Shown in pieces: positions 4,770 to 39,694 of a DNA stretch of 64,000 bases. Position numbers and translations under genes: made by a program. Origin of the DNA: Lachnospiraceae bacterium P6A3 (lineage in GTDB: Bacteria > Bacillota > Clostridia > Lachnospirales > Lachnospiraceae); NCBI GenBank assembly GCA_000702085.1, contig JNKP01000001.1:1-64000 (forward strand), written 5' to 3'. Below the pieces are notes generated by a model. It was not told where the DNA came from, made no database searches, and saw nothing but the letters and a program-made list of their open reading frames with translations. How positions within the stretch are numbered: the first letter of the stretch is position 1; every line of letters begins with the position of its first letter.

Positions 4770-4807
4770 CATATGCTCCTTTTCCGCAATGATTAATAAA
4801 ACAAGAC

Positions 4808-4835
4808 AACGGGATGAAAATATACTCATCCCGTT
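4808..4835 (-). terminator. intergenic hairpin / attenuator in pilus operon
   Basis: A 10-bp perfect stem (AACGGGATGA / TCATCCCGTT) with an 8-base loop lies between the GspH-like gene and the large pseudopilin, just upstream of the latter's ribosome site. It is followed by a broken T-rich stretch. It probably reduces, but does not abolish, expression of the last gene. Confidence 0.6.
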
Positions 4836-4847
4836 ATCATAATACCA

Positions 4848-5366: not shown

Positions 5367-5384
5367 AATAAACCTTTCGAAACA

Positions 5385-7912: not shown

Positions 7913-7952
7913 AATGTCTCCAATTTCAATAAGTTATTTGCCGATAACAATA

Positions 7953-8645: not shown

Positions 8646-10549
8646 TATTGTGCTGCCTCCTCGGGTACATTTACGTTACTCTCAACAACAACCTGTTCCT
8701 GAGGAACATATACACAAGTTACTGTAAAAGCAACATATCTTCTGCAGATATACTTCTCGCCGGTTTTAGCATCAACTCCGGTATAGTATGTTCCGATATG
8801 ATTAACTGTATAAACAGTCTTGCCTTCTTCGGCTTCATCATCGGCAGCTTCTTCATCATCAGCATCCGCATCCTTGGCGTCTTCTGCTTCCTCTTCAGCC
8901 TCTTCCTCTTCTTCATCGGCATCGAGATCGTGAATAACTACATCATCTCCAAGGGCGTTGATTTCCTCTTCAGAAAGTCTGTCTTCCTTCTCTTCAAGTT
9001 TCTCAAGAGAAACGCTCTGAACAGAATCAAATCCTCTGAGAGTTTCAAGAATACCGATAGCCTGGTTCCTATCGAGAACTTCAACCGTCATGGTGAATTC
9101 CTCGTCATCGGATGTAAACTCAGAAATGGTCATATCTTTAGGCATCTTAACCTCAAGTTCCTCAAGGAATTCGAGAATTCCATCGGAGGATCTCTGGGTC
9201 ATGCTCTCGCCGGTAACAACACCTCTGTAAAACTCAAGAACCGCAGCATATCTGTTATAGATAGCTTCAGACTCAAGATATCTCTGTTCGGTAGCCTTAA
9301 GAGTCTTATTATCGTCCTGAGCTGTCTTCATATCAAAGAATCCCTTGGCAACAAACGCCAAAGAAACAACAACGCCAAGAGTAACAACAAGAGGAACAAG
9401 TTTTCCTAAATTAGTAGCATTCTTGGCTTTATTTGATTTAGCTCTTGAGAAGAAACCAACAGGAGCATAAATCGCACCGATAGATGCTACATAGTTATAA
9501 AGGTCGGCATTGTCTCCAAGAACCGAATACGATACATTTTCAAGCTTTCTGAGAACGCTGACCTTAAGTCCGAGTTCGTTGGAAAGCAAATGTGAAATAC
9601 CGTTAATCGCACCGCCGGCACCGCAGATATAGCAAAGATCAAGAGGGTTTGAAGAGTTGGTCGAATTGTAGTAATTGATAACTCTCTGAATACCCTTTAC
9701 AAGATCTTCGAGGCTGTCGGTAACAGCCTGACGGGCATTGGTCATTGCCTGGCCTTCGGAAGGCTCGGGCATATCCTCACTGTCGGTAATAGCGGTAGCT
9801 TCATTGAGAGTCTTTCTGATGCAGGCTCTCTTCATTGCTATATTACGAGCATCAAACTCACTTACAGCCTGGAATGCGGGCTGATGCATGATTTCCTTAA
9901 TAGCAGGAAGGAAACCGAATCCGATATTTCTCTGAAGAAGAAGGCTCTCATTCTTGATAACGAGAACAGATGTCGAGTTCTCTTCTATCTTAAGAACCAT
10001 CTTACACTGGGTCTTATTTTCACTCTTGAGAACCTGATATACGGAGTTTGCAACGTTGTCAACCTGTACAAGTACAAGTCCGCAGGAAGCTGCAAGCTGT
10101 TTATAGCTCTCAACGAGGTTATTTTCTGCTGCCATAATGGAAACACGAAGTTTTCCGGCATCCTTACCCTCATCGATGGTACCAAGTACGGTATATGCAA
10201 CCTGATAATTGTCAAGATCGATGGGGAAGTAATCAGACAGATTAGTCTGGATCATGGAATCGAGCTGAGCTGCCTTCATCTGAGGAAGCTGCTGCTCACG
10301 GGTTACTATCTTAGTTGAAGAGATAGTAAAGATTACGTTCTTGGTTCCCTTAATTCTGTTAGAAACCAGTGCGGTTCTGATGGCATTAGCCACAGCGTCA
10401 GGGTTAATGAGATATCCGTCATTAATGGAATTCTCCGGTGTGTTGCAGACTACATGATAATATACCCTGGGATTTGTCGTCTTGTAGTCCATCTGGACGA
10501 TACGGATCGTCGTGTTACTGAGCTCAATGCTTAGAATCTTGGAAGCCAT
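8645..10549 (-). CDS. pilM: PilM-PilN fusion protein
   Basis: The 634-residue protein combines two normally separate pilus parts. Residues 1 to about 370 form an actin-like PilM domain (start ILSIELSNTTIRIVQMDY, later CGAGGAINGI). A membrane helix follows at about 383-402, then a coiled region and a PilN-like periplasm-type domain (about 450-518, with FLEELEVKMPKDMTISEF). An acidic stretch (about 541-577, nearly all Glu, Asp and Ala) precedes a short C-terminal beta region of about 55 residues. In most bacteria PilM binds a short N-terminal tail of a separate PilN; here the link is covalent. The protein should connect the PilB motor to PilO. GAGGGTAGG precedes the ATG. Confidence 0.85.
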   Translation of the reverse strand: MASKILSIELSNTTIRIVQMDYKTTNPRVYYHVVCNTPENSINDGYLINPDAVANAIRTALVSNRIKGTKNVIFTISSTKIVTREQQLPQMKAAQLDSMIQTNLSDYFPIDLDNYQVAYTVLGTIDEGKDAGKLRVSIMAAENNLVESYKQLAASCGLVLVQVDNVANSVYQVLKSENKTQCKMVLKIEENSTSVLVIKNESLLLQRNIGFGFLPAIKEIMHQPAFQAVSEFDARNIAMKRACIRKTLNEATAITDSEDMPEPSEGQAMTNARQAVTDSLEDLVKGIQRVINYYNSTNSSNPLDLCYICGAGGAINGISHLLSNELGLKVSVLRKLENVSYSVLGDNADLYNYVASIGAIYAPVGFFSRAKSNKAKNATNLGKLVPLVVTLGVVVSLAFVAKGFFDMKTAQDDNKTLKATEQRYLESEAIYNRYAAVLEFYRGVVTGESMTQRSSDGILEFLEELEVKMPKDMTISEFTSDDEEFTMTVEVLDRNQAIGILETLRGFDSVQSVSLEKLEEKEDRLSEEEINALGDDVVIHDLDADEEEEEAEEEAEDAKDADADDEEAADDEAEEGKTVYTVNHIGTYYTGVDAKTGEKYICRRYVAFTVTCVYVPQEQVVVESNVNVPEEAAQ

Positions 10550-10578
10550 ATCCTACCCTCTTTAAAAAATTTATTATG

Positions 10579-10599
10579 AACAGATAACCATTATCTGTT
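10579..10599 (-). terminator. intergenic hairpin, possible attenuator
   Basis: A 9-bp stem (AACAGATAA / TTATCTGTT) with a 3-base loop lies between the peptidase gene and the pilMN gene, followed on the minus strand by an A/T-rich stretch including six Ts. It may tune the ratio of peptidase/pilin to the assembly proteins. Confidence 0.4.
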
Positions 10600-10610
10600 A
10601 CATTCAATAA

Positions 10611-11408
10611 TCAAAACCCTATAAAAGTAACTGTCAAACTACTCAAATAGTTCAAATATGCGGAAATCATCTGTTCACCCGCAAATATCGAAATAACAAT
10701 ACCTGCAGATAAATAAGGACCCATTGCAAGCATATGAGACTCTCCGCTTATCTTCATACGTGCAATATGAATAACGGATCCCAAAATACAACCAAGGAAA
10801 AAGGCCAGGATAACCAATTTCCATCCAAGCAGAAGACCTGCGGCCCCCATAAGCTTGACGTCACCGCCTCCGATGCCTCTTCCCTTGGTCGCATAATAGA
10901 TCAATAAAAGTGGAATACTGACTGATACCAGGCCGATAATATATTCCGGCCAAGAATTGTGATCTAAGATAAATTCATAGATCAGCCTTATCGTACCCAA
11001 TACCAGTATAAAAATGTTAAATCCGACCGGTATTTCGTACGTACGAAAATCGATCACACTAAGTGCGATCAGGCTGCTGATAAGTCCGCAATACAGAAGG
11101 GTTGTAACGCTCATATCAAACAGCAGATAAGTAACCAACCACATCGTTCCGTTCAGAGCCTCTATAAGAGGATACTGGACCGAAAGTTTGGTCTTGCACT
11201 TCCTGCATCTACCCCGAAGAGTAAGCCAACTGAAAAGTGGGATGAGATCATACCACTCAAGCTGGTAACCGCAAGTCATACAATGAGACCTGGTCTTTAC
11301 AAATTCTTCCTTCTTCGGGATCCGGTAGATCAGCACATTTAAGAAGCTGCCTACCGTAATCCCAAAGAGAAAGAACACTATTCCGATGTAAATGCGGAAA
11401 TAAAACAT
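10611..11408 (-). CDS. pilD: prepilin peptidase (leader peptidase/methyltransferase)
   Basis: This membrane aspartyl protease cleaves and N-methylates prepilins. The 265-residue protein has the N-terminal methyltransferase-type domain with two zinc CxxC pairs (Cys43/46 and Cys68/71). The two catalytic aspartates are in DFRTYEIP (Asp120) and the GGGD motif (Asp183). About eight membrane helices are visible. It begins 9 bases after the major pilin stop. Its substrates are the five prepilin-type proteins of this operon. The family assignment is secure. Confidence 0.93.
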   Translation of the reverse strand: MFYFRIYIGIVFFLFGITVGSFLNVLIYRIPKKEEFVKTRSHCMTCGYQLEWYDLIPLFSWLTLRGRCRKCKTKLSVQYPLIEALNGTMWLVTYLLFDMSVTTLLYCGLISSLIALSVIDFRTYEIPVGFNIFILVLGTIRLIYEFILDHNSWPEYIIGLVSVSIPLLLIYYATKGRGIGGGDVKLMGAAGLLLGWKLVILAFFLGCILGSVIHIARMKISGESHMLAMGPYLSAGIVISIFAGEQMISAYLNYLSSLTVTFIGF

Positions 11409-11417
11409 TAAGCTAAA

Positions 11418-11813
11418 TTATGACGCAGCTGCCTTGTAGTTAGAAGCGCCGGACTCGGTGGTAAGATCGAAAGATGCAGCAGTAACTGAGCAGGTGCCGG
11501 TAATTGCGTTGTAGCTAGCTGAGAAAGTGGGATGAGTTCCACCGATGGTAGCTGAGCAGCTAGGCTCTTCGGAAATGGTAGAAAGTGAAGTGAAGTTTCC
11601 TGATGCGATAGAGCCTGATCCGGTAAGAGATCCGTCAGCGATGTCAGCAAGAACTGCTTCTCTGATCTCCTGAGCGGTCTGGATGTCACGGCTTCTTCTG
11701 GACTGCTCAACGTACTTGATGAACTGAGGTGCAAGAACACCTACAAGTACTGCCATGATAGCAATAACGATGATGAGTTCTACGAGTGAAAAACCTTTGT
11801 TGTCCTTCTTCAT
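11418..11813 (-). CDS. pilA: major type IV pilin-like protein
   Basis: The 131-residue prepilin has a 7-residue leader (MKKDNKG), FSLVE with Glu at mature +5, and a classical hydrophobic N-terminal helix. A small Ser/Thr/Ala-rich domain follows, with a Cys pair (about Cys84 and Cys101) that could form a disulfide. Shortness, position after pilC and a strong ribosome site (AAAGGAGAG, 6 bases before the ATG) make it the likely major subunit. The leader and helix resemble competence (ComGC) and type IVa pilins. The C-terminus ends in Ala-rich residues without a sorting signal. Confidence 0.88.
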   Translation of the reverse strand: MKKDNKGFSLVELIIVIAIMAVLVGVLAPQFIKYVEQSRRSRDIQTAQEIREAVLADIADGSLTGSGSIASGNFTSLSTISEEPSCSATIGGTHPTFSASYNAITGTCSVTAASFDLTTESGASNYKAAAS

Positions 11814-11897
11814 AATAATCTCTCCTTTAAATAAATGAATTGGTTTTATATCTCAAACGCCTCTGCCCTTCTACACAGGCGATTGATTCGAAATGAA

Positions 11898-13112
11898 TTA
11901 CAGATTGTCGAGGCCCTGATACATTGCAAGCATGGGAGCCATAACCGCACCGATAAGCACGCCGACTATAAGAGCAAGCACAATAATGATCATAGGCTCG
12001 AGCATTGCCATGAACGACTGAACTGCCATCTCAACTTCTTCCTCATAATATTCAGCGTTCTTATTGAGCATATCCTCGATATTACCGGTTTCCTCGCCGA
12101 TTCTTACCATGTAGTAAACCATCGGAGGGAAGATACCCGCCTCTTCAAGAGGTCTGGAAAGAGGCTGACCGATTGTAATCTCTTCCTTAGCATGTTCAAG
12201 TGCTTCACGGAAGTAGATATTCGTCATGACGCCGGAAGTGATATCAACTGCTTCAACAAGGGGAAGGCCGGCTCCGATAAGAGTACTGAGAGTTCTGGAC
12301 ATAAGTGCCGAAGCACTCTTAACGGTTATTTCATGTGTAAGAATGAATTTAATCGCAATCTTACCGAAGAAATGTTTTCCCTGATCCGTATTCTTAAAGG
12401 TAATAATTCCAAATGCTATAGCTCCGATAACAGGAACAATTATAAACCAATAATTCTTCAGTCCGTCACTCATCGCAACAACCGCTTTTGTTATTGCGGG
12501 AAGTTCCGTATCAAGCTCCGCAAACATCGAAGTATATGTAGGAATAACGACTTCGAGCATTACTATAACGACGGCAATAGCAACGAGCACAACGATGATG
12601 GGGTAAATCATTGCTTTCTTAATGAGAGCCTGGGTCTTGCTGGTTCTTTCAAACTGCTTACCCATTCTGTCAAAAGCGATGTCCAATGAACCTGACGCCT
12701 CGCCGGCAGTGACCATGCTGATAAGCAGAGAAGGAAAAATCGTAGGAAATTCAGCCATTGCTCCGGATAAGGTCATACCGGTTTCGGTACTTGTCTTAAC
12801 ATCAAAGATTGCCTCTCTGAGTTTCTTATTCTCAGTGGACTCTCCGAGCATCTGGAGTGAATCAAGAATCGTAACACCGGCTCTGATCATGGACACGAAC
12901 TGTCTACAGAAAACCGATAAGTCTCTGACATTAGGTCCCTTTGACAAGTCAAAACTGAGATTCTTGTTAAAAGCATTTTGTGAGCCGAGGCTTACGACTG
13001 TGAGCCCCTGAGCCTTAACGCTGTCTCTGGCTCTGTCGATATTGTCGGCCTCAAGGGATCCCTTTATCAGTTTTCCCTCAGTATTCATAGCTTCATAAGC
13101 GAATGTTGCCAC
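11898..13112 (-). CDS. pilC: PilC/GspF inner-membrane platform protein
   Basis: The 404-residue protein has two repeated GspF domains (about residues 65-190 and 270-390) and three membrane helices, the normal size for PilC. It forms the membrane platform on which the PilB motor works. The signature GEASGSLD in the first repeat and GEETGNIEDML in the second are visible. The start is a GTG placed 7 bases after AGGAGGG. It is the first gene of the pilus operon, whose extension ATPase lies 25 kb away on the same strand. Confidence 0.93.
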   Translation of the reverse strand: MATFAYEAMNTEGKLIKGSLEADNIDRARDSVKAQGLTVVSLGSQNAFNKNLSFDLSKGPNVRDLSVFCRQFVSMIRAGVTILDSLQMLGESTENKKLREAIFDVKTSTETGMTLSGAMAEFPTIFPSLLISMVTAGEASGSLDIAFDRMGKQFERTSKTQALIKKAMIYPIIVVLVAIAVVIVMLEVVIPTYTSMFAELDTELPAITKAVVAMSDGLKNYWFIIVPVIGAIAFGIITFKNTDQGKHFFGKIAIKFILTHEITVKSASALMSRTLSTLIGAGLPLVEAVDITSGVMTNIYFREALEHAKEEITIGQPLSRPLEEAGIFPPMVYYMVRIGEETGNIEDMLNKNAEYYEEEVEMAVQSFMAMLEPMIIIVLALIVGVLIGAVMAPMLAMYQGLDNL

Positions 13113-23641: not shown

Positions 23642-24058
23642 CTACTGTTTCTTTAGCTCTTCCTTAATTGAAGACGACGATATTCCTTGTGTCCTTTTAA
23701 GTCTTACTATTTTTTTATTATGCTCTGTACACCATTCACAGATATCATCAAATCTTTTGCCGATATGATCTTCACCAAGGGCCAGAATATCAAAGCCCTC
23801 CTTTTCTTCTATCATCTGGAGAGCTTCTACGCCTACAGTATTATACACAATAACACTATCCACCATGCGCAAAGACTCAAGTATTTCAACGCGTTCTTCA
23901 GTACTGTAAAGAATCTGTGCTTCAGGTTTATAATCCCTGATGTATTCGCCGCTTTGAACAGCAACAATCAAATAGTCCGCGTGTTCCTTACATTGTTTGA
24001 AAAGACGTAAATGTCCAAGATGAAAATAATCAAAAACACCAAAAGTTAATATTTTCAT
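23642..24058 (-). CDS. TagD-like cytidylyltransferase
   Basis: The 138-residue nucleotidyltransferase has FGVFDYFHLGH at residues 6-16 (the HxGH motif) and RTQGISSSSI near the C-terminus, the two signatures of glycerol-3-phosphate and related cytidylyltransferases. It would form a CDP-alcohol from CTP and a phosphorylated alcohol. The neighbouring LicD transferase uses such donors in known systems. Glycerol-3-phosphate is the default substrate, but the company of a glycyl radical enzyme and an ornithine-cyclodeaminase relative leaves room for an unusual alcohol. Confidence 0.85.
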   Translation of the reverse strand: MKILTFGVFDYFHLGHLRLFKQCKEHADYLIVAVQSGEYIRDYKPEAQILYSTEERVEILESLRMVDSVIVYNTVGVEALQMIEEKEGFDILALGEDHIGKRFDDICEWCTEHNKKIVRLKRTQGISSSSIKEELKKQ

Positions 24059-24072
24059 ACTATCATTCCCTA

Positions 24073-25017
24073 TTAAACATAGAAATTCTCATCAGGTCTG
24101 AAATCATCAACATATTTGCCGGATGATAAACCAAATATTTTATATGCATAATATAGATCGGTAATCGCCAAACCCAGATTATAAACCAAAACTCTATCAG
24201 AATCTTTTTCTCTTGCAGGAATATTACCGTTTAAAATATCATCAGTCAGAGATACTTTTTTATATTCTTTAAAGTATTTGAACCCTTGAGCGCGATGCAT
24301 ATCCGATACAATGATGTGATCAAAAGCAAGATCGCATTCCATAAAGCCACGCATATGAACAGGAAGGATTGTGCAACCAGGTTTATATATTTCCGGGTCA
24401 CAAAAATCTTTTTCAGCGTAAGATACTGATGAAATGATCAAATCAGAATCTTTCATCAAATCATCATAAGTATCACATATAACAAAATCAATATTGTTAC
24501 GATCAGTATAACGATTCATGAATCTTTCAGCATGGTCTTTATACCTATATAACTTAACCGTTATATGTTTATTTCCGATAACGTCAAAAAGTATATCTCC
24601 GATTGCAGTCCCAATATTGCCAAGCCCAACCATAGATACAATCTCATAGTCATCAACGAAATTAATAATAGAATGTACTGCGACAGCAGCAGTTCTTAAC
24701 GTAGTAATAAGATTACCGTCCAGAATTGCCAATAAATCGGAGGTATTGTAATCATACAAAAAAATCTGTGCATCCATATTCAACCCGCCGGCATTTCTAC
24801 GGTTTTCACTTCTGTTAATAACTTTTAATCCAAAAACTTTTTCATCCGGTAAAAGGCAGGACATGATATTGCAATAATCGCTGCCCTCCATCGGAATCCT
24901 TACTTTTTCCGGAAGGACAAATCGATCTCTGTTTCTAAGAACATAATCAATCCATTCAAGATGCATTTTTGAAGATATCTTTAAATTTTTAATTTCATTA
25001 AAGTCAATTATTTTCAT
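24073..25017 (-). CDS. ornithine cyclodeaminase / mu-crystallin family protein
   Basis: The 314-residue protein has a Rossmann nucleotide motif GLGNIGTAIGD (about residue 132) and the family's N-terminal dimer domain with KVINRSENR and LLAILDGNLITTLRTAA. Members are NAD(P)-dependent and act on imines: ornithine cyclodeaminase, alanine dehydrogenase, ketimine reductase, or synthases of N-substituted amino acids. In a glycan cluster it may make an unusual amino acid or amine to decorate the polymer. The specific reaction is not deducible. It overlaps the LicD gene by 4 bases (ATGA). Confidence 0.75.
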   Translation of the reverse strand: MKIIDFNEIKNLKISSKMHLEWIDYVLRNRDRFVLPEKVRIPMEGSDYCNIMSCLLPDEKVFGLKVINRSENRRNAGGLNMDAQIFLYDYNTSDLLAILDGNLITTLRTAAVAVHSIINFVDDYEIVSMVGLGNIGTAIGDILFDVIGNKHITVKLYRYKDHAERFMNRYTDRNNIDFVICDTYDDLMKDSDLIISSVSYAEKDFCDPEIYKPGCTILPVHMRGFMECDLAFDHIIVSDMHRAQGFKYFKEYKKVSLTDDILNGNIPAREKDSDRVLVYNLGLAITDLYYAYKIFGLSSGKYVDDFRPDENFYV

Positions 25018-25925
25018 GAGCGCATCTCCTTAATTTTCTCATAATAGGGAATATCCGGGTCAATTATTAAATTTCCGTTTAACTGATGACCTGATTTAGA
25101 CTCTATAGGAGTCATATAATTTTCACCGTAATATCGTTTTAAAACTTCATCAAATTTTTTAGGAGCAGGTACTTGTGTGAATTCAAAATCCAAATAAACC
25201 GGTTTGCCAAAAAAGTCGGAAGGAAACACCCTGTATTTTTTTAAATCGGTATAATACGAAACCTTGTCCAGGTATCTCCCAAATCTGCGGCCGCAAATAA
25301 ATTCAAACAACCTGTATGATCTCTTATCGCCCAATCGTTCTATGTGCTTCAGATATTTATTTCTTATCTCGCGTTCTTCCGGTCCAACATTTTCAGGCCC
25401 AAACATTTTTTCAATAAACGCTTTCTGCCATTTTCGTATATGATTAAATCTACTTATCCTTTTTTTCTCGTTTTTTCTAACATAATCAACAGGAAAGATA
25501 TCTAAAAATATACCCTGATTAAACCCAACAAGTAGTGCTTCATTAGGAAGCATTGCAGTAGATAAAGAATGCCTTAATTGAGCATGAGTGCGAAAATAGT
25601 TTTTTTCCGAATACGCGGACTGAAGAAAATATGGATATGCAAACTCCTGAGAATAATTACGAATAAGCTTATTATAATCAGCCCTCATCATTATTACATC
25701 TATATCATCATCCCACGGAATAAATCCCTTATCTCTTACAGCGCCAAGCAAAGTTCCGCTGTCAACATAGTAAACAAGATTATGTTTTTTACACACATAA
25801 TCCAATTGAGACAACATTTCAAGAAGAATAGCCCAAGTCTTTTTTCTGGTCTCACTTATATGATATCCGTTTCTATCTTCAGGATGATAAAACGCATCAG
25901 GTATATTTATATTTTTATCCTTCAT
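25014..25925 (-). CDS. LicD-family phosphotransferase
   Basis: The 303-residue protein contains the LicD signature in the first third: YYVDSGTLLGAVRDKGF then PWDDDIDV, the Asp-rich metal site. LicD proteins transfer a phosphoryl-alcohol (phosphocholine in pneumococcus; other groups elsewhere) from a CDP donor to a glycan. The CDP donor could come from the TagD-like enzyme two genes downstream. No CTP:phosphocholine (LicC-type) gene or choline uptake gene is in the window, so choline is not implied. It overlaps the flippase stop by 4 bases. Confidence 0.85.
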   Translation of the reverse strand: MKDKNINIPDAFYHPEDRNGYHISETRKKTWAILLEMLSQLDYVCKKHNLVYYVDSGTLLGAVRDKGFIPWDDDIDVIMMRADYNKLIRNYSQEFAYPYFLQSAYSEKNYFRTHAQLRHSLSTAMLPNEALLVGFNQGIFLDIFPVDYVRKNEKKRISRFNHIRKWQKAFIEKMFGPENVGPEEREIRNKYLKHIERLGDKRSYRLFEFICGRRFGRYLDKVSYYTDLKKYRVFPSDFFGKPVYLDFEFTQVPAPKKFDEVLKRYYGENYMTPIESKSGHQLNGNLIIDPDIPYYEKIKEMRS

Positions 25926-27373
25926 ATAACACCCTTACTATCAAGCGTATTTTTGGAAAAAATAATGTTCCACATGTCCTTTATTGTATTATCCTTAAAA
26001 ATTACAAGTATAAGGGGGTAAGCGACCAATCCGATGAATATTTGCAACAAAACCACAAAATGGTTTGAAAACATTTTTCCGGTAAAATAAACCAACCCAA
26101 ACATTATTGCACCAGCTATAAGTTTCTTCCACAGACAGGTAAATATATATATAAAAGACATAAAACCATTGCTCATTTTGACGTATAAAAATGAAATTGT
26201 CATTTCGGCTATAAGTGTCGCAATTACAGCCCCCAAAGCGTCATACTTAGGTATTAATAACAGATTTAATAATAGATTTATCGCAGCACCGGTAATAATA
26301 TATTTTGAACTCTGACTTCTTTTACCCGACGGAGTATAATACTGACTACCCAGGCAGTGGCTCACTCCTACAATGATTACAAGAGGTGACATAACACATA
26401 AAATCACAACCGCAGGAGTAAACTCTTCGCCAAGATATATAGGAATAAAATTTTCTGCTATTCCGATCACCCCAAAAGCCGCCCCTACGCTTAACATCAA
26501 AATCAAATCTATTGATTTATTTATTATTTTCTTTATTTCATCATATTCTTTGTTTTTAAATAAATATGAAACTCTTACCGTCAATACTGAATTAATAGCG
26601 CTGTAAGCGAACACCTTTAATACAGCTATAAGCTTTGTAGCCTCTTCATAATAACCGTTCTGATAGGAATTCCGAGTAATGATACCAATAAGAGTTTTAT
26701 CAAGAACCGTATATATGGATATAGCTATGGTAGGAATAAAATATACAAGCGATTGTCTGAAATGTCGTTTAATTTCAAGGTTTTTAAAACCTGTAAATTT
26801 GATCATCCCCGGCAAAAGCATCCATGTTGACACGCTTCCCAAAAGAGAAAAGCAGGAATAAATCAAGCAATATACATATATATCCCGTGGAGAACGGACA
26901 AACAAAAATAATGAGATAGTTGCAGCTATTTTTATAATAGTGTCACGAAAAACCAGTTTTTTGATCTGTTCCAAGCCGTTAAAAAACCAGGAAACATCCA
27001 GCATTGTACTCAGCAAAAAAGGAGTCAGTGCCATGAAATAATACTTATACTCATTTGATATGCATATTAAAACAGTCCATAAACACAAGCTGATCGACGA
27101 GGTAATAACAGAAACAGATTCAATTCCCCAAAAAAGAAAACTGAGTTTTTCTTTATCATCCCTGTTTTGTGATATTTCTCTGGAGCCATATGTCATGGTA
27201 CCCAAAGCACCGAATATCATAAAATACACAAGAATAGAATAAGTATAGCTATAATTTCCGACACCGTCAGCACCCAATACACGGGCTACATAAGGTGTTG
27301 TTACAAACGGGATCAAAAGATTCAGGGCCTCGTATACTATTCTAAAAACTATATTTTTCTTAACGCTGGGCAT
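25922..27373 (-). CDS. Wzx-type polysaccharide flippase
   Basis: The 483-residue, strongly hydrophobic protein has about 12-14 membrane helices. The N-terminus NIVFRIVYEALNLLIPFVTTPYVARVLGADGVG is typical of the polysaccharide-transport (PST/Wzx) branch of the MOP superfamily. It would flip the undecaprenyl-linked repeat unit to the outside. A single flippase gene suggests that one repeat-unit glycan is made here. No Wzy polymerase was recognised with confidence; the YfhO or GT-C proteins do not replace it in known systems. The gene is visibly A/T-rich. Confidence 0.88.
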   Translation of the reverse strand: MPSVKKNIVFRIVYEALNLLIPFVTTPYVARVLGADGVGNYSYTYSILVYFMIFGALGTMTYGSREISQNRDDKEKLSFLFWGIESVSVITSSISLCLWTVLICISNEYKYYFMALTPFLLSTMLDVSWFFNGLEQIKKLVFRDTIIKIAATISLFLFVRSPRDIYVYCLIYSCFSLLGSVSTWMLLPGMIKFTGFKNLEIKRHFRQSLVYFIPTIAISIYTVLDKTLIGIITRNSYQNGYYEEATKLIAVLKVFAYSAINSVLTVRVSYLFKNKEYDEIKKIINKSIDLILMLSVGAAFGVIGIAENFIPIYLGEEFTPAVVILCVMSPLVIIVGVSHCLGSQYYTPSGKRSQSSKYIITGAAINLLLNLLLIPKYDALGAVIATLIAEMTISFLYVKMSNGFMSFIYIFTCLWKKLIAGAIMFGLVYFTGKMFSNHFVVLLQIFIGLVAYPLILVIFKDNTIKDMWNIIFSKNTLDSKGVI

Positions 27374-27398
27374 AAGGCATGATTGTTATAAAAGTTAA

Positions 27399-28193
27399 TT
27401 AAAAATCAATAATTTCAACATCCGGGCAGTTCTTTAACAGTTCATCATATACATACTTAAGTTTTGTGTCGGACAATTCATCAAATTCAGTATAATCCAG
27501 TCCAATTTTCCTATACTTCGAAGCGGCAAGATTATGCACTTTAAATATTTGAATTTTTAAGTCTCCATATTCTTTTAGAAAGTCCAATAAAGCATGTATA
27601 TTTTCATCATTATATGTATATGGTTCTACCAGAGGGATTCGGAGAATCATTTTATCTCTATATCTATTAGAAACCTCTTTAAAATTCCTAAGAAAAACAG
27701 ATACATCTCCGCCTAGATATCTTATGCATTGATCCGGAACTAAATTTTTTATATCAACAATAAAATTATCAATATAATCAAAGGAATACATTAATTGCTT
27801 TTCAGAAGCAAAGAGCGACGTTTCAATCCATTGAGAAATTCCCAGACCTTTTATTCTTTTCAAAACATTCTCAATACGATATAGGGAAATTAACGGTTCA
27901 CCTCCGGAATACGTGATACCTCCGTCATGTTTATAAAAATCTGCGTCCCTGAGAAGCAATTCAAGGACCTCATCTTCAGTCATTAGTTTCCCATAACTTT
28001 TTGTGAAGCCATTTTCCTCAAAATCAAATATTTCATATGACAAATTCTCAGGATTAGAACACCAAGGGCATCGCAGATTACATCCTTTCAAAAATACGGT
28101 TGTCCTTATGCCGGAACCATCGTGCACGCAAAACCGTTGGATATTACCGATAATAATCCGCTTATCAGGGTTGAGTTCGACATCTGAAATCAT
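27399..28193 (-). CDS. glycyl radical enzyme activase (radical SAM)
   Basis: The 264-residue radical SAM protein has the cluster motif CNLRCPWC (Cys38, Cys42, Cys45), preceded by the activase-specific VHDGSGIRTTVFLKG, and a YSGGEPL motif for AdoMet binding. It lacks the 8-Cys ferredoxin insert found in most activases of non-PFL glycyl radical enzymes and has only a short insert there (about residues 50-75). It should abstract hydrogen from the glycine of the partner enzyme, whose stop overlaps its start (ATGA). This tight coupling makes the partner assignment firm. Confidence 0.9.
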   Translation of the reverse strand: MISDVELNPDKRIIIGNIQRFCVHDGSGIRTTVFLKGCNLRCPWCSNPENLSYEIFDFEENGFTKSYGKLMTEDEVLELLLRDADFYKHDGGITYSGGEPLISLYRIENVLKRIKGLGISQWIETSLFASEKQLMYSFDYIDNFIVDIKNLVPDQCIRYLGGDVSVFLRNFKEVSNRYRDKMILRIPLVEPYTYNDENIHALLDFLKEYGDLKIQIFKVHNLAASKYRKIGLDYTEFDELSDTKLKYVYDELLKNCPDVEIIDF

Positions 28194-30226
28194 GCTGCTT
28201 TACCTTCATTTTTTAAAGCTCTTTCAATGAGCATATCTTTATATTTTTCCGGCAAATCAACGTAAAATGCACTAAATCCCCATACCCTGACAATTAAGTT
28301 CTTATAGTTTTCCGGATGTTTTTTTGCATCAATAAGTGTTTCACTGCTTACAACGTTCATCTGCATCTGGAAAAAGCCTTTTTCAATACTTACTTTAACC
28401 AGATCAACACATTTACTGAAATTCTTTTCCAAAAACACAGGATTGATCATAAAATCAATCACATTACCGTTTATTCCATATCCGGAATAATCCAGTTGTG
28501 AAGCAAAAGAAATCAACTCGGTATAAGCAATATTTTTATCGCAGGAGATATGAGTATTCAGCGGTTTATGTGATTTTCTTCCGTCAAATGTAGCAGTGGT
28601 ATATTTTCCATCCATAAGGTAATTGGGAGAACTTAATCCAATCTTATAACCGCCCCCAAACCTGTTAGATTGACCAGCCAAAGCATTTTTAGCATAGCCA
28701 AACACTTTGTTTGTTAAAGAAATGCATTTTTGATCATCCCTGCCAAAGAATTCTTCCGAAGAAGTAAGTTCTTCAATAAGGCTTTCTTTACCGGCATAGT
28801 TTTTCTTTAACACCTTCCTTACATCATGTATAGTCATCCTGTTCTCGACAAATACTATTTTCTCCAAATTCAGCAGGGAATTTACGGCATTAGAAAGACC
28901 ATCCGAAAGCAAGCCATAATTATTATACTTTGCTCCTCCCTCAGAAATATCTTTTCGACTTATAATACAATCCTCAAAAAATATAGACAGTAACGGAGAC
29001 GGTTCCCATATATTTCTATCAACCTCACCTGCTCTTTTCTTCACATAATCCTGAATCATCCGGCCATAAATATCGTATACATCTTCAATAGTCTCTGCCG
29101 AATCGATGTTACTATCATCCATCATATCGACAAAAATCTTTGCAAAAGGGATAGTAACTAAATTATTCTGATCCATGGATTTTCCTATAATCACAGGTTC
29201 CCAGCAAGCTGAGACACCATAATTATACGAATCATTCGTATCAAAACCGTAATCCGAAAGCAAAGGAATAATAACATCATCATTAGAAAACAACGGACTT
29301 CCGTTTCCGGTAGCAATACATTCCAATGATTTTTCAATTAAATCTTCAGGCATATCCCTGGTTACTCTTAACAATAATTTGGGATCCGGAAGATTCAAAT
29401 TCTTAATTATTTCAAGAAAGGCATATGTATAATAATTTGCAAAATATCCGGTTTCATTATTTGATCCGCCGAGAATCATTAATTGTCCTGTGTCACCCAA
29501 AAGTGCCTGACTTTTAACAGAATAGAACCTATGTAACTGAATACAAAAATCCTTTAATATTTCGTTAGTCTCTTTTTTATCTTTAATCTCAAAAGAATCA
29601 AGCAATAGATCAATTCTTCCAAGTCCCATTAAAGTGTGACCGGTCTGAATAAGCAAAGAATTAAACAATAAAATTCTTTGAAGTGCATCCGTCAATGAAC
29701 TCGCACGGGAAATTTTTATTGATTTTAAATTCTCAATAATTTCGTTATTGTATTGCCCATCCAAGGAAGATAGTCTCTCACAAATCTTGTCGATATACTT
29801 TTCAACAACATTCAGAAGTCGTACATAATCGTTTTTGTCACCCTGAAGATCAATAATTTTATTCTTTATTTCTTCCAGAGAATTATTAATGACAAAAGAG
29901 TAATCAACCGGCATATTGCCTATAACCGGATATCTGTTATTAAAATATATCTTTTCATCTATATGATAATAGAACCTTGACTGAGAATCATATTCAACAG
30001 GCATCTTGTCTATAAGATTATCTATTTGTATGACTTTGTCATTGTTACAGAATATAATTTTCAAGCCAAACAGAGAAAACATACTCTTAAATCCATACAT
30101 TACAAGTGGTATAATCCCTCTCCGGCTTGCATGTTTTGAATAAAAATATAAAGCCCTTTTATAAATGATCACAGGGATTTGATATATTTTTATATTTTTC
30201 TCATAAAATAAATCAATTATCTTCAT
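28190..30226 (-). CDS. glycyl radical enzyme in a glycan cluster, substrate unknown
   Basis: The 678-residue protein matches the pyruvate-formate-lyase-like superfamily. The radical loop near the C-terminus reads LIVRVWGFSAFYVDL, with Gly650 as the expected radical site. The active-site loop reads SACWEP, giving Cys341 and Glu343; the single Cys followed by x-Glu matches eliminases (diol/glycerol dehydratase, choline lyase, hydroxyproline dehydratase), not PFL, which has two adjacent Cys. It is shorter than most members (about 760-880). It is embedded between a GT2 gene (1 base away) and its activase. A dehydration or C-X elimination on a metabolite used for the glycan is the best inference. 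Confidence 0.88.
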   Translation of the reverse strand: MKIIDLFYEKNIKIYQIPVIIYKRALYFYSKHASRRGIIPLVMYGFKSMFSLFGLKIIFCNNDKVIQIDNLIDKMPVEYDSQSRFYYHIDEKIYFNNRYPVIGNMPVDYSFVINNSLEEIKNKIIDLQGDKNDYVRLLNVVEKYIDKICERLSSLDGQYNNEIIENLKSIKISRASSLTDALQRILLFNSLLIQTGHTLMGLGRIDLLLDSFEIKDKKETNEILKDFCIQLHRFYSVKSQALLGDTGQLMILGGSNNETGYFANYYTYAFLEIIKNLNLPDPKLLLRVTRDMPEDLIEKSLECIATGNGSPLFSNDDVIIPLLSDYGFDTNDSYNYGVSACWEPVIIGKSMDQNNLVTIPFAKIFVDMMDDSNIDSAETIEDVYDIYGRMIQDYVKKRAGEVDRNIWEPSPLLSIFFEDCIISRKDISEGGAKYNNYGLLSDGLSNAVNSLLNLEKIVFVENRMTIHDVRKVLKKNYAGKESLIEELTSSEEFFGRDDQKCISLTNKVFGYAKNALAGQSNRFGGGYKIGLSSPNYLMDGKYTTATFDGRKSHKPLNTHISCDKNIAYTELISFASQLDYSGYGINGNVIDFMINPVFLEKNFSKCVDLVKVSIEKGFFQMQMNVVSSETLIDAKKHPENYKNLIVRVWGFSAFYVDLPEKYKDMLIERALKNEGKAA

Positions 30227-30227
30227 A

Positions 30228-31115
30228 TTAATCTACCTTATCAATTTTCACCCTCATAAACATGCCGGCAACGGTTCCTCTGAAAATTGTAAAAGCCTTA
30301 TGAATTTTATGATCTGTTCTACCGAAAAGGACACGAAGGATCATCAAATCGTGAAATAACAATATCTTTATAAATGACCTTAATCCCCTAATACGATAAG
30401 TCACGGTAGTATTACGATAAAAATAATAGAATCTGTTAATACGATCTTTGGGAGTGTTAAATATATCGACGCCGATATTCTCTTTCATGTAATGATAGAC
30501 AGTACTGTTTCCAATTAAGAAGCCTTTGTATCCTTGTCTTAGGATTCTCGTGGAATACTCACCATCATCTCCCCAAATAAAATATTTTTTAATGGGAAGA
30601 CCTACTTCTTTAACAACTGCAGACGGAATAAACATCGCAACAAAAGATGTATGAGAAATTTCGACAATCCCATCAGCGATATACTCATTCCAGCGGTAAA
30701 CCGTGCCGGGAATGTTCATCATGCAGGGCATATCATCCTTGAACAAAACATTACTGGTAAGAAAACCAATCTTCTCACGATGCAAAGTACTCAACGATGA
30801 TACCAAAACCTCAAGAGATGATTCGGTCACAATAGTGTCATCATCCATAATCCAAAGATAATCGCATCCTATTTCATAGGCACTTTTTATTCCATAATAA
30901 AATCCGCCGGCACCTCCGAGATTATTCTCCAGATTAATAATCTTAAACCTGTCATCTTCGGAAAACTCGGATAAATATTCTGTCGTTCCGTCAGTGCTGG
31001 CATTATTAACTATGATCAATTTATTCAATTTATATGATTGCTCCAACAGCTTAGATATACATAATTTCAAAAGTTCCAGTCGGTTATAAGTTACTACAAC
31101 TGCATTTACAAGCAT
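30228..31115 (-). CDS. GT2 glycosyltransferase
   Basis: The 295-residue GT-A enzyme starts VNAVVVTYNRLELLK, has VNNASTDGT for nucleotide binding, WIMDDDTIV as the metal (DxD) site and a GGAGGF loop. These features, and FIWGDDGEYSTRI later, resemble rhamnosyl- and galactofuranosyltransferases of the GlfT2/WbbL type. It should add one sugar to the lipid-linked unit at the cytoplasmic face. The strong site AAGGAG lies before its ATG. It precedes the glycyl radical enzyme gene. Confidence 0.87.
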   Translation of the reverse strand: MLVNAVVVTYNRLELLKLCISKLLEQSYKLNKLIIVNNASTDGTTEYLSEFSEDDRFKIINLENNLGGAGGFYYGIKSAYEIGCDYLWIMDDDTIVTESSLEVLVSSLSTLHREKIGFLTSNVLFKDDMPCMMNIPGTVYRWNEYIADGIVEISHTSFVAMFIPSAVVKEVGLPIKKYFIWGDDGEYSTRILRQGYKGFLIGNSTVYHYMKENIGVDIFNTPKDRINRFYYFYRNTTVTYRIRGLRSFIKILLFHDLMILRVLFGRTDHKIHKAFTIFRGTVAGMFMRVKIDKVD

Positions 31116-31165
31116 ATCGGTACTCCTTATAAATCTTACAATTCTATCCTTATCATGAAATATAA

Positions 31166-32173
31166 TTAAGCATAGCCAAATATTCTCTTAATAAATCTTA
31201 TTCTCAGTAACAATCCTGCAATGAGCATGATCAATATTGGTTTTATAAATATCAATATCACAGAAAAAAAATCTACCGAAAATCCAAATACGTCAATAAT
31301 TAATCGATCCCACGGAAACAAGTTCAATTCAATAATATGAATACATAAAATCAGCAAACTGTACCGTCCAAAAAACGCAATAATTCTTTTAATAAAGCTT
31401 GTATCATTTCTAAAAGCATAACTGAATCCTATTATTATCACTGCGCCGGCCAATGATGCCAAAACATCCCAAAAACCTTTGCCATAATAATTTCGTGATA
31501 TCAAAAAGCCTTGATAATCAAAAACAAATCTAATCCATATAACAGACAAAACAAAGGTCCCGATTGTTTTTATCTCCGAATCAATTCCGGTAAAATCTAT
31601 TTTTCCGGCAAGCCATCCCAAATAGACATACAAAGAACAGCAAAGCCCAGCTTGAATACTCATAGGAAACCAGAAGAACATTTTTGATGTGCAATATCCT
31701 AATGCAAATGCTACTGCTATCAAAATCACTCTGATTCTATAATCAAGCTTCAGAGTGTATTTGACAATGGATGTAGCTATAAAAGATGCCGGGAGGAACC
31801 AGATTGCACCAATTTGAGGAATATAAAAAGGATACAAATAAGTATTACCGGCCCCATACAAGGAAGCAAACAGCCATCTTTTCAGTTCTCCGATTGCATC
31901 TCCATTAAGAGCCCCCTCGAACGTCCCTAAGACAATGATAACCGCACAAGTAACAATATATGGAATCATAAGTCTTAAAAAACGTGATATTACATATTCT
32001 TTTATGCTCCTTGTTTCATTGATAAAATACCCGGAAATTAGCAGAAAAACAGGAATGTGATATGTATAAACAATTCTGTTAATTGAATCGATCCCCATAT
32101 GCCCGACGATAATACTAAGAATCGCTATTCCCTTTGCAATATCCAAATATTCTAATCGTTTTCCGGATTCCAT
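31166..32173 (-). CDS. acyltransferase family 3 membrane protein
   Basis: The 335-residue protein has about ten membrane helices. The first segment carries RLEYLDIAKGIAILSIIVGH, where the family's conserved Asp, Lys/Arg and His lie, and a VYTYHIPVFLLISGYF block. Acyltransferase-3 proteins move acetyl or other acyl groups onto exported sugars (fucose 4-O-acetylase-like). It probably acetylates the glycan made in this cluster. It lies between two GT2 genes on the same strand. Confidence 0.85.
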   Translation of the reverse strand: MESGKRLEYLDIAKGIAILSIIVGHMGIDSINRIVYTYHIPVFLLISGYFINETRSIKEYVISRFLRLMIPYIVTCAVIIVLGTFEGALNGDAIGELKRWLFASLYGAGNTYLYPFYIPQIGAIWFLPASFIATSIVKYTLKLDYRIRVILIAVAFALGYCTSKMFFWFPMSIQAGLCCSLYVYLGWLAGKIDFTGIDSEIKTIGTFVLSVIWIRFVFDYQGFLISRNYYGKGFWDVLASLAGAVIIIGFSYAFRNDTSFIKRIIAFFGRYSLLILCIHIIELNLFPWDRLIIDVFGFSVDFFSVILIFIKPILIMLIAGLLLRIRFIKRIFGYA

Positions 32174-32182
32174 AACTGTATT

Positions 32183-33100
32183 CTACGCCTTCCATCCGGG
32201 TTTATATATCGGGTGAATACCCATATTCCCTTTAATACCGTCTTTGATGGCTGCATTAACAACTTTAATTTTTGAAGGCTTAAGCGAAATAAAAGCAAAT
32301 ACCCTTCTTCTTACGATTCTCCAGAAATATGACCATTTATCAAAATGTTCTTTGTACATGACCACAATATTTCTGCTTGCATAGTAATCTCTCCAGGACG
32401 TTATATCCGCAGGAGGAGTATTATCAACATGAGTTATCTTAACAGATGTTGTACACACAATCCTGCCCGTCTTTTTCATTCTTATCGAATGTTCAAGGTC
32501 ATCCTGATAGATAAAGAAATCTTTTCTCGGAAGTCCGGCCATCAGCAGTTTATTTCTGTTCAGGAAGGTTCCCACAAATGAATACATATCGATATCAAAG
32601 ACGCTCTTTTCATACCAGCTTTGCGGTATGGGCATATCCATTAATCCAAATACAGTTTTTTTCAATCTGAATCTTTGAATATTTGAATAATTACCGTCAC
32701 TTCCGCATACACCGCAAACAGCAGCAATTCCCGATATCTCTGAAGCTCTTTCGTTGATGAAATCCCTTGCTTTCTCGAAAGCATCAAGTTCGGGATATGC
32801 ATCGTCATCCGCAACCCAGATCCAGTCAATATCTTCATATTTCTGCATTGCTTCAAGGCCGGAATAAAAACCTCCGCTCCCGCCGGTGTTAGACTCAAGG
32901 GATATGACCTCTTTCTGAACCCCTTCATCTTCAGCCAGCCACGATTCCAGAAACTCTTTAGTTCCGTCATCGCTGCAATTATCTACAACAACTATCCTTT
33001 CAGGCGTATATGTCTGAGCTGTATAACACCTAATAGATTTTCGAAGATGATCTATTCTATTGTAGGTAACGATTACTGCTCCAAAGTTTAAGGAACTCAT
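32183..33100 (-). CDS. GT2 glycosyltransferase
   Basis: The 305-residue GT-A glycosyltransferase has FGAVIVTYNRIDHLRKSI at the start, VVDNCSDDGT, and WVADDDAYPEL as the metal site. It is related to the other GT2 gene of this operon (same GGSGGF loop). It would add another sugar of the repeat unit. It starts 3 bases downstream of a YfhO gene and is followed after 9 bases by the acyltransferase gene. Confidence 0.87.
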   Translation of the reverse strand: MSSLNFGAVIVTYNRIDHLRKSIRCYTAQTYTPERIVVVDNCSDDGTKEFLESWLAEDEGVQKEVISLESNTGGSGGFYSGLEAMQKYEDIDWIWVADDDAYPELDAFEKARDFINERASEISGIAAVCGVCGSDGNYSNIQRFRLKKTVFGLMDMPIPQSWYEKSVFDIDMYSFVGTFLNRNKLLMAGLPRKDFFIYQDDLEHSIRMKKTGRIVCTTSVKITHVDNTPPADITSWRDYYASRNIVVMYKEHFDKWSYFWRIVRRRVFAFISLKPSKIKVVNAAIKDGIKGNMGIHPIYKPGWKA

Positions 33101-37990: not shown

Positions 37991-39694
37991 TTATGAATCA
38001 AAGGAAATTCTGCACATTTCGGAATAGCTGGTAGTTCCGTCAAGAACGTACTCCGTACCCGACATATGAAGAGTATGCATTCCTTCCGCAAGAGCTTCCT
38101 CTTTGATCTGACCTACGGTTGCTCTTCTTGAAATAGTCTCTCTCATGTGCTCGGTGATAACCATGATCTCGTAAACACCGATTCGGCCTTTATATCCGAG
38201 GTTGTCACACTGCTGGCATCCGTTGGGCTCATAAATGGTAATATCCTCATTCATGCGCTCGGGAGGAATATTCATGACCTCTTTCTCGGTAATGGTCGCA
38301 AGACGAGGCTTCTTACAAAGAGGGCAAAGCCTTCTTACGAGACGCTGTGCGATAACGCCGATAACGGAGTCTGCAATGAGGTAAGGCTCAAGTCCCATGT
38401 CCTCAAGTCTGGTGATGGTCGCAGCCGAGGAGTTGGTATGCAGGGTTGAAACGACAAGGTGACCGGTGATAGATGCCTGAACTGCTATTCTCGCGGTTTC
38501 CTCGTCTCGAATCTCTCCGATCATGATAATGTCAGGGTCTTGTCGGAGAATTGACCTGAGGGCCGATGCGAATGTCAGATCCGCTTTGTTATTGGTCTGT
38601 ACCTGGTTGATACCGTCAACGTTAGTCTCGACAGGATCCTCAACCGTGATGATGTTAACCGCATCGGAGTTAAGTTCCGAAAGTGCGGTATACAGTGTTG
38701 TTGATTTACCGGATCCGGTAGGTCCCGTAACGAGAATGATTCCGTTGGGGTGAGCAAGAAGTGAATCAAACTGCTTCTCTTCGTAGTCCTTAAGACCAAG
38801 CTTACTCTTCTCTCTCTTCATACCGGACTTGGAGTTAAGTCTCATAACGACCTTCTCACCAAATACGGTAGGCAGAACGGATACACGGATATCATACTCG
38901 ACATGGTCGACTATCTGAGTGATACGACCGTCCTGAGGTTTTCTTTTCTCAGCGATATCCATACCGCCGATAACCTTGATACGTGCAACAAGTGCGCTGA
39001 GGAATACCAGCTCGTATCTTGCTCTCTCATAGAGCACACCGTCGATTCTGAAACGGACACGAACCTGTCTCTCGAGTGCCTCTATATGAATATCGGAAGT
39101 TCTCTGACGAACCGCCTTCTCGATCATTTCCTTAACGATCTTAACGATAGGCGAATTTGCAACGTCTTCATCGTGCTGTGATGTATCTTCGTCCTGAACG
39201 AGACCTTTCTCTTTAGCGAACTTTTCAAGGTCTTCAGTATTGGACTTCTGACCGAAATATTTATCAAGGGATTCGACGATACCTGACGTCGTAGCCACAT
39301 AGGGCTGGATCTCCAGGTTTGTCAGCATGCTGACGTCTTCCTGAGTGTCGAAATCAAGAGGATCGGCAACTGCGAGATTTAAGATATTGGGGTTATTCTC
39401 ATCGTATCCGAAGGGAATAACCTTCTTTTTATTCAGAAGTTCGTAGTTAACAAGTTTAAGAACATTTTCGGGAATGTCTACATCCTTGATTCTTACGTAG
39501 GGCAGATCCATCTGCCTTGAAAGTACCTTAGCAATCTCCTCCTCAGAAACAATGCCGGCTTCAACAAAGTACTCTCCGAGCTTTTGACCTTTCTTTTTAG
39601 ACTCTTCAAGTGCTTGTTCTAGGGCCTCCTCCGTTATAAAACCATCTTCAACAAGAGCCTCCCCCAGTCTTACTCTTTTAAAATTTCTTGCCAT
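37991..39694 (-). CDS. pilB: pilus extension ATPase PilB/GspE
   Basis: The 567-residue hexameric ATPase powers pilin polymerisation. The N-terminal MshEN-type domain begins RLGEALVEDGFITEEALEQAL, close to the motif that binds cyclic di-GMP in MshE, but with Glu in place of the usual Gln. Walker A is GPTGSGKST (324-332), Walker B lies in DPDIIMIGE (Glu394), and zinc-type Cys pairs are at 457/460 and 493/496. No retraction ATPase (PilT) is in the window. It is separated from pilC by the whole glycan island. Confidence 0.95.
   Translation of the reverse strand: MARNFKRVRLGEALVEDGFITEEALEQALEESKKKGQKLGEYFVEAGIVSEEEIAKVLSRQMDLPYVRIKDVDIPENVLKLVNYELLNKKKVIPFGYDENNPNILNLAVADPLDFDTQEDVSMLTNLEIQPYVATTSGIVESLDKYFGQKSNTEDLEKFAKEKGLVQDEDTSQHDEDVANSPIVKIVKEMIEKAVRQRTSDIHIEALERQVRVRFRIDGVLYERARYELVFLSALVARIKVIGGMDIAEKRKPQDGRITQIVDHVEYDIRVSVLPTVFGEKVVMRLNSKSGMKREKSKLGLKDYEEKQFDSLLAHPNGIILVTGPTGSGKSTTLYTALSELNSDAVNIITVEDPVETNVDGINQVQTNNKADLTFASALRSILRQDPDIIMIGEIRDEETARIAVQASITGHLVVSTLHTNSSAATITRLEDMGLEPYLIADSVIGVIAQRLVRRLCPLCKKPRLATITEKEVMNIPPERMNEDITIYEPNGCQQCDNLGYKGRIGVYEIMVITEHMRETISRRATVGQIKEEALAEGMHTLHMSGTEYVLDGTTSYSEMCRISFDS

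Follow-up and report, generated by a model that had tools for sequence, protein, structure and literature searches.

Why should a glycyl radical enzyme (GRE) be encoded within a run of surface-glycan genes? To our knowledge, every GRE whose function has been assigned works in catabolism, in central metabolism or in the supply of DNA precursors. The question is raised by a 64,000-nucleotide stretch of the Lachnospiraceae bacterium P6A3 genome (contig JNKP01000001.1, positions 1 to 64,000; hereafter the window), in which the genes for a GRE and a radical SAM activase adjoin a gene for a family 2 glycosyltransferase (GT2). Our analysis supports a link between a divergent clade of GREs and the assembly of surface glycans, and it is highly probable that the window GRE itself belongs to glycan assembly. 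The explanation that we favour, with somewhat better than even confidence, is that this protein is a candidate glycosyltransferase-coupled, sugar-directed eliminase that would tailor a unit of the surface glycan. Among the titles and abstract openings listed in searches of an open-access library, we found no GRE described in glycan assembly, and no paper of that library combines 'glycyl radical' with 'glycosyltransferase family 2'; the full text of the Levin 2017 GRE survey or of a 2017 GRE review might mention one. The genes at the centre of the question are the following.

28190-30226, minus strand: GRE, an open reading frame (ORF) of 678 residues with Cys341, Trp342, Glu343 and Gly650
27399-28193, minus strand: radical SAM GRE activase, an ORF of 264 residues, ATGA-coupled to the GRE and without the ferredoxin insert
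30228-31115, minus strand: GT2 glycosyltransferase, best NCBIfam match GlfT1 at 88 bits against a cut-off of 330

The initial annotation had drawn attention to the tight spacing of these genes, and both of its readings match the ORF coordinates: TCAT at 28190-28193 of the plus strand is the coding-strand ATGA overlap of the GRE and activase ORFs, and a single base (30227) separates the GRE start from the GT2 ORF end at 30228. By sequence, the 678-residue protein is a GRE. It matched PF02901 (PFL-like) at 189 bits (2.1e-55, above the cut-off) and PF01228 (Gly_radical) at 52.9 bits against a cut-off of 22.2 (6.1e-14), and as a single sequence it retrieved GREs from the PDB starting at 1.7e-50. 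With a profile of seven relatives, the best PDB matches were 8id0 (3.2e-84, spanning profile positions 75-664), PflD (2.5e-76) and glycerol dehydratase (1.6e-75), and this homology to solved GREs implies a predicted ten-stranded GRE barrel fold. The catalytic motif is Cys341-Trp342-Glu343-Pro344, in which Cys341 aligns with Cys433 of 1r8w, and Gly650 lies within RVWGFSAFY. The glycyl radical loop and the Cys-x-Glu site are present as first described; only the placement of CWEP at 341-343 needs correction, as the motif spans 341-344. The protein scored below every NCBIfam cut-off (12 families listed), with 238.2 versus 678.2 bits for TIGR01774 (formate C-acetyltransferase/glycerol dehydratase subfamily), 157.3 versus 1050 bits for CutC (TIGR04394) and 162.2 versus 1100 bits for HypD (NF043068).

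The enzyme had also been called shorter than most GREs, which agrees with our counts. It has 340 residues before the catalytic cysteine, within a range of 304-352 for its clade, while the 13 reference GREs have 418-499, values that may be slightly high for the 11 references counted from stop to stop (annotated PflD has 418 and YbiW 440). In the sister clade described below, seven of nine members have 332-361 residues there, and two with longer open frames have 419 and 448. The clade GREs are therefore short because their N-terminal part is short. Elsewhere in the same genome, the other Gly_radical matches were identified by eye as a class III ribonucleotide reductase and a pyruvate formate-lyase. 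The ORF of this pyruvate formate-lyase (L004:818-3054; G000:C1 near 1025166-1027441; L and G numbers are our handles for loci and genomes) stops before the glycyl radical part, which lies on a separate 107-residue ORF followed by a PflA-like gene; either the enzyme is split or the sequence contains an error.

A maximum-likelihood tree of 35 GREs placed the 13 intact clade members on one side of a 100/100 branch with a length of 1.49, grouped nine GREs of a sister clade (L034-L042) at 100/100 and grouped the 13 references at 100/99. The references were few and of our own choosing, with E. coli PflD and YbiW, CutC, HypD and a glycerol-dehydratase-like protein among them, and the broken G098 member was left out. 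An earlier GRE tree of 29 rows was in agreement. Identity to the window GRE was 38-47% for the 12 other intact members (over 606-667 aligned columns), 28-32% for the sister clade and 23-28% for the references. The alignment columns (counts in the order clade, sister clade, references; n = 13, 9 and 13) separate these groups further. The catalytic cysteine is present throughout (13/13, 9/9, 13/13), and both the Cys and the Glu of Cys-x-Glu as well as RVWGFS are kept in 13/13 intact clade members. Asn104 is found in 13/13, 9/9 and 0/13, the references having His in 11, Asp in one and Gln in one. The same split of 13, 9 and 0 holds for the alanine preceding the catalytic cysteine (Gly in all 13 references), the tryptophan between Cys and Glu, Trp649 (Ala in all 13 references), Asp245 and Lys283. 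Asn355 occurs in 13, 9 and 1 (Asp in five references), Asp281 in 12/13 clade members (one Glu) and 9/9 sisters, and His197 in 12/13 clade members, with Asn at this position in seven of the nine sisters. The motifs A-C-W-E, RVWG and GDxGQ are common to the clade and its sister clade.

The clade collection comprises 14 loci, the window included, and was drawn from overlapping genome samples whose counts are not additive. Thirteen loci belong to the family of the window genome and one (G210) to another family of the same order. A scan of genome contigs gave one relative, from Hungatella hathewayi, with 43% identity over residues 83-674. In the family sample, 20 of 200 genomes matched at E <= 1e-40, four of them (own included) with at least 40% identity; in the order sample, 10 of 392 matched at 1e-55, of which seven (own included) belong to the clade; and in the phylum sample the matches at 1e-55 were two of 398, the window genome itself and one sister-clade member. 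At genus level the distribution is patchy, since only the own genome matched among 31 at 1e-30. The Hungatella protein as query gave matches at 1e-80 in 11 of 397 family genomes, all of them clade members. Among viral contigs, 14 stretches fitted a pattern and none was confirmed as a relative. In G098 a stop breaks the GRE (L029:4827-7022) and the activase ORF has just 212 residues, next to an intact flippase gene; this GRE is perhaps a decaying copy.

What do these loci have in common? Glycan genes scored above their Pfam cut-offs in 14/14 clade loci (selected neighbours scanned). In a tblastn search with 13 glycan proteins taken from the clade loci, 13 of the 14 clade loci were matched (self-hits included) versus 0/9 sister loci; the remaining clade locus, L028, gave no tblastn glycan match and carries WbsX by Pfam. 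A flippase gene lies within a few genes of the GRE in 10/14 loci, and that of L117 is about 8 kb away. The order is GT2-GRE-activase-Wzx in the window, G440 and G1018, GT2-GRE-Wzx-activase in Hungatella and G1068, and GRE-Wzx-activase in G545 and G1031; the other loci vary. Among the first eight loci, the GRE, the activase and Wzx alone recur in seven or more. The variation in gene order and in the remaining genes speaks against the association being the mere inheritance of one block. The initial annotation had proposed a count of relatives beside GT2, LicD or Wzx genes. In our collection a GT2 of the GRE-linked type is adjacent in 6/14 loci and a flippase is near in 10/14, and a tblastn search with the window LicD matched L032 alone among the 13 other loci; LicD is outside the conserved core of the module. 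The wider proposal of that annotation, a biosynthetic GRE in glycan assembly, gains from the 14 glycan loci and from a link new to it, the two GT2 fusions presented below; the elimination that it envisaged is a candidate chemistry. Two minor observations concern these loci. A nucleotidyltransferase-PEP mutase fusion (L032:2558-4567, Pfam) lies near LicD in a GRE locus and probably points to a phosphonate on the glycan, and two DAHP synthase family genes with 57% mutual identity (L005:102-953 and L117:15028-16038) lie near the GRE in two loci.

Against this background, it is scarcely credible that the window GRE came to lie in a glycan locus by chance and is a standard enzyme of catabolism, be it a diol dehydratase, a choline lyase or a hydroxyproline dehydratase. 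Such an enzyme would belong to the same superfamily and carry the same C-x-E site, and CutC and HypD are likewise Cys-x-Glu GREs with a radical SAM activase. Unlike the window GRE, they stand apart in the tree and serve choline and hydroxyproline catabolism. Their cut-offs were far from reached, the clade is separate at 100/100, glycan genes accompany it in every locus and its substrate-site residues differ. The initial annotation had named two findings that would speak against its proposal, and neither appeared: the relatives are not characterised catabolic enzymes (157 of 1050 bits for CutC, 162 of 1100 for HypD), and the pair is not an isolated recent insertion, as 14 loci share the GRE, patchy though it is (1/31 in the genus).

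The glycosyltransferase gives a more direct link. We built a GT2 profile from the proteins adjacent or fused to the GRE, and eight proteins of the GRE-linked type scored 360-436 bits with it, including a second copy in L117; seven of these eight were in the profile themselves. The second GT2 of the window scored 160 bits, the L113 fusion 103 and the remaining listed proteins below 50. The GRE-linked GT2 lies just upstream of the GRE in 6/14 loci (window, Hungatella, G440, G1018, G1068 and G1080). In G1091 the two are joined in one protein, and in G993 a more distant GT2 forms a fusion with the activase. For seven such GT2s, GlfT1 was the best NCBIfam glycosyltransferase match. Because these scores were 47-88 bits versus a cut-off of 330, we class the proteins as GlfT1-like and not as GlfT1 proper, a predicted family placement. 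The GRE neighbour in L032 had no NCBIfam match and fell under the Pfam GT2 cut-off. The G1091 fusion (L118) is a single frame of 988 residues, in which residues 5-295 share 50% identity with the GRE-adjacent GT2 of the window and residues 371-985 share 41% with the window GRE; its GT2, PFL-like and Gly_radical domains are all above the Pfam cut-offs, and C-W-E and RVWGFS are kept. The G993 fusion (L113) has 746 residues, with a GT2 at 4-238 (27% identity to the window GT2) and an activase at 494-744 (41%). These fusions are the strongest evidence that the GRE works with a glycosyltransferase.

The activase accompanies the GRE in 14/14 clade loci, once as a fusion. The window activase passed TIGR02494 (206.6 bits versus a cut-off of 174.35), and its Cys38, Cys42 and Cys45 form the CxxxCxxC motif. 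It had been noted to lack the usual ferredoxin insert, which is right for the window and does not extend to the whole clade. The insert is missing from six of eight aligned clade activases, while an insert with Cys residues is retained in L028 and L030; outside that alignment, Cys-bearing stretches are also seen in the activases of L117 and L118. The constant presence of an activase bears on another explanation, namely that the GRE is degenerate or non-catalytic and has a structural role or acts as an oxygen-sensitive switch of glycan assembly. Oxygen cleaves glycyl radicals, one protein is fused to a GT2 and the G098 member is broken by a stop, all of which such a role could accommodate. We consider it very improbable, as the catalytic and radical residues are kept in 13/13 intact members and the activase gene in 14/14 loci.

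The flippases tell a looser story. In a tree of 28 flippases, nine of the ten GRE-linked ones and that of G188 form one group (100/97); of the 18 background flippase loci, L056 is missing from this tree, as other frames hid its flippase. A search with the Hungatella flippase matched 21 of 200 family genomes at 1e-80; the matches with at least 50% identity were only itself, G098 (with a GRE) and G188 (without).

If the enzyme is catalytic, on what would it act? The sister clade resembles the window clade in A-C-W-E, RVWG, GDxGQ, Asn at the His position and Lys283 (9/9), and differs in having Pro before the Asn355 column in 8/9, where the window clade has Asn. Its neighbours also differ, with sugar-type transport and catabolism genes and 0/9 glycan matches. 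An activase gene is present in 9/9 sister loci, and parts resembling sugar ABC transporters were found by tblastn in 7/9 (all except L039 and L042, and weak in some, e.g. L038 and L040); Pfam confirmed an ABC ATPase or a solute-binding protein in all five sister loci checked. An FGGY kinase occurs in L034 (Pfam) and L039 (tblastn), DeoC in L034 (Pfam) and L036 (tblastn), and a xylose-isomerase-like protein of L039 lies slightly below its Pfam cut-off. Genes for a kinase and DeoC next to a GRE would be consistent with the conversion of a polyol or sugar to a 2-deoxy sugar, and we regard the sister GREs as candidate sugar or alditol dehydratases. Together, the fusions and the sugar-type loci of the sister clade make a sugar a likelier substrate than choline, hydroxyproline or a small diol.

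Comparison with glycerol dehydratase bears on the substrate as well. Cys433, Glu435 and His281 of the B12-independent enzyme 1r8w align with Cys341, Glu343 and His197 of the window GRE. Its Asp447 aligns with Asn355, and the His of its GH..DY segment, which we take to be His164 and, with Asp447, to be substrate-binding, aligns with Asn104 via the glycerol-dehydratase-like relative. Neither the His nor the Asp of glycerol/propanediol dehydratase is kept in the clade (Asn104 and Asn355 in 13/13), and these replacements say that the substrate probably differs. A sugar is not foreign to the superfamily. E. coli YbiW and PflD are reported to cleave 1,5-anhydroglucitol-6-phosphate and 1,5-anhydromannitol-6-phosphate with opening of the ring (PMC12441222), and therefore GREs can act on sugars. 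Both share the GRE fold (by homology) and Cys-x-Glu with the window GRE, and PflD was second in the PDB profile search; they differ in being only about 25% identical, in their longer N-terminal part and in having GCVE/GCIE, RVAG and His where the window clade has ACWE, RVWG and Asn. PflD adjoins PTS genes, not glycan genes.

The favoured eliminase would then operate as a module of GT2, GRE and activase, joined in many cases by a Wzx flippase, for anaerobic tailoring of a glycan. By analogy with known GREs, the activase would place a radical on Gly650, the radical would move to Cys341, and Cys341 would abstract a hydrogen from the sugar; Glu343 would accept the hydroxyl proton and the C-O bond would break. 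Either a vicinal diol would lose water and leave a deoxy-aldehyde or deoxy-keto sugar, or the ring would open, as happens with the GREs that cleave anhydrosugar phosphates. The substrate may be the sugar handled by the partner GT2, either its nucleotide donor or the residue newly added to the lipid carrier, and the modified unit would be exported afterwards. Eliminase-type chemistry fits the Cys-x-Glu site, because in a related GRE, IseG, a conserved Glu is assigned to deprotonation of the substrate hydroxyl (PMC6453916). That the GRE acts directly on a nucleotide- or lipid-linked sugar, yielding deoxy or carbonyl sugars by a route possible only without oxygen, is a more tentative proposal, to which we give a little less than an even chance. 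The exocyclic diol carried by furanose hexoses would suit a dehydratase; galactofuranose itself is a guess based on the GlfT1-like GT2s. If all this is true, radical C-O chemistry extends to cell-surface polymers, sugars not yet seen are predicted in the glycans of anaerobes, and coat composition is linked to anoxic conditions. With so small a module and a GT2-GRE fusion provided by nature, the idea can be tested directly.

Alternatively, the GRE might work on a sugar without dehydrating it, as a radical epimerase or isomerase or as a C-C or ring-opening lyase. The loci share no reductase or aminotransferase for an aldehyde or ketone product, a partner that a redox-neutral step does not need, and ring opening has the precedent of YbiW and PflD (PMC12441222). 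Cys-x-Glu, the arrangement of GRE eliminases, is nevertheless present in 13/13 members, and this explanation appears quite improbable to us. Nor do we know of any GRE epimerase.

Several results weigh against the sugar-directed eliminase. A GT2 of the GRE-linked type was not seen in the examined stretches of 6/14 loci. Both fusions come from draft genomes, each as a single frame; an assembly error is possible, but it would need to have occurred twice. The window flippase lies outside the GRE-linked group, its nearest rows being background ones, and G188 has a flippase of that group with no GRE relative at 1e-40 and none seen in its 20-kb stretch. These two cases rule out Wzx as a strict partner of the GRE, and the association itself is retained. 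An AlphaFold2 model of the GRE from two sequences reached a mean pLDDT of only 39, which allowed no pocket model. Finally, no shared sugar-donor pathway emerged when UDP-galactopyranose mutase and heptose families were sought in eight clade genomes. As a common source, UDP-galactofuranose was uninformative, with TIGR00031 in 8/8 clade genomes (seven above the cut-off) but also in 91 of 100 family genomes. The heptose pathway was rejected, as the SIS family PF13580 was unmatched in two of the eight, the window's own genome included; some loci carry GmhA/HddA-like genes (by eye).

The remaining question is what the other genes of the window contribute. The further features on the same strand are listed here.

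25922-27373, minus strand: Wzx-type flippase, Polysacc_synt (Pfam)
25014-25925, minus strand: LicD family protein in the same gene run (Pfam), membership of the module unproven
24073-25017, minus strand: OCD/mu-crystallin family reductase-like protein in the same gene run as the GRE
23642-24058, minus strand: cytidylyltransferase-like protein of the GRE gene run, nearest to glycerol-3-phosphate cytidylyltransferase (75 versus 165.4 bits)
32183-33100, minus strand: second GT2 of the same broad group, upstream of the GRE, 160 bits with the GT2 profile

The genes 3' of the activase encode, in order and by Pfam, the Wzx-type flippase, LicD, the OCD-family protein, the cytidylyltransferase-like protein, an HMGL-like protein and an acetolactate-synthase-like TPP enzyme; Pfam thus agrees with the flippase and LicD first placed close to the pair. 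The run is likely one transcription unit because its intergenic gaps are short. A promoter and terminator scan stayed near shuffled counts (60 versus 67.5, sd 9.0, and 13 versus 10.0, sd 3.8, respectively). No shell protein was seen among 10 window proteins (Pfam) or in the ORF lists by eye, in the course of work that included no search aimed at shell proteins.

These neighbours suggest yet another role: starting from a polyol, an amino alcohol or a choline-like or phosphonate-like compound, the GRE would produce a small, free building block, CTP would serve to activate it, and LicD or some other transferase would attach it. Small compounds are the substrates of known Cys-x-Glu GREs, LicD and cytidylyltransferase-like genes adjoin the window pair, L032 combines its nucleotidyltransferase-PEP mutase fusion with a LicD-like gene, and L028 has an IspD-SDR protein. 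We judge this role unlikely, albeit deserving of attention: genes of the LicD and cytidylyltransferase type are not shared among the loci (LicD only in L032), the fusion partner is a GT2 and not a cytidylyltransferase or LicD, and Asn104 and Asn355 stand where glycerol dehydratase has His and Asp. Tailoring of a sugar in step with the GT2 is the reading that we retain.

The GC content is 33-34% at 24001-32000 versus 43-49% at 38001-60000, and the low value of the glycan region would suit an island that is variable or was acquired. Beyond the TPP enzyme lie putative CDP-sugar genes, identified by eye; the segment 15129-21948 holds a CDP-3,6-dideoxyhexose-like route (by eye) together with the TPP enzyme, which matched 8rph best in the PDB; the product may be a branched sugar. 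Genes resembling type IV pilus or type II secretion systems (by eye) flank the glycan run at 2349-13112 and 37991-39694.

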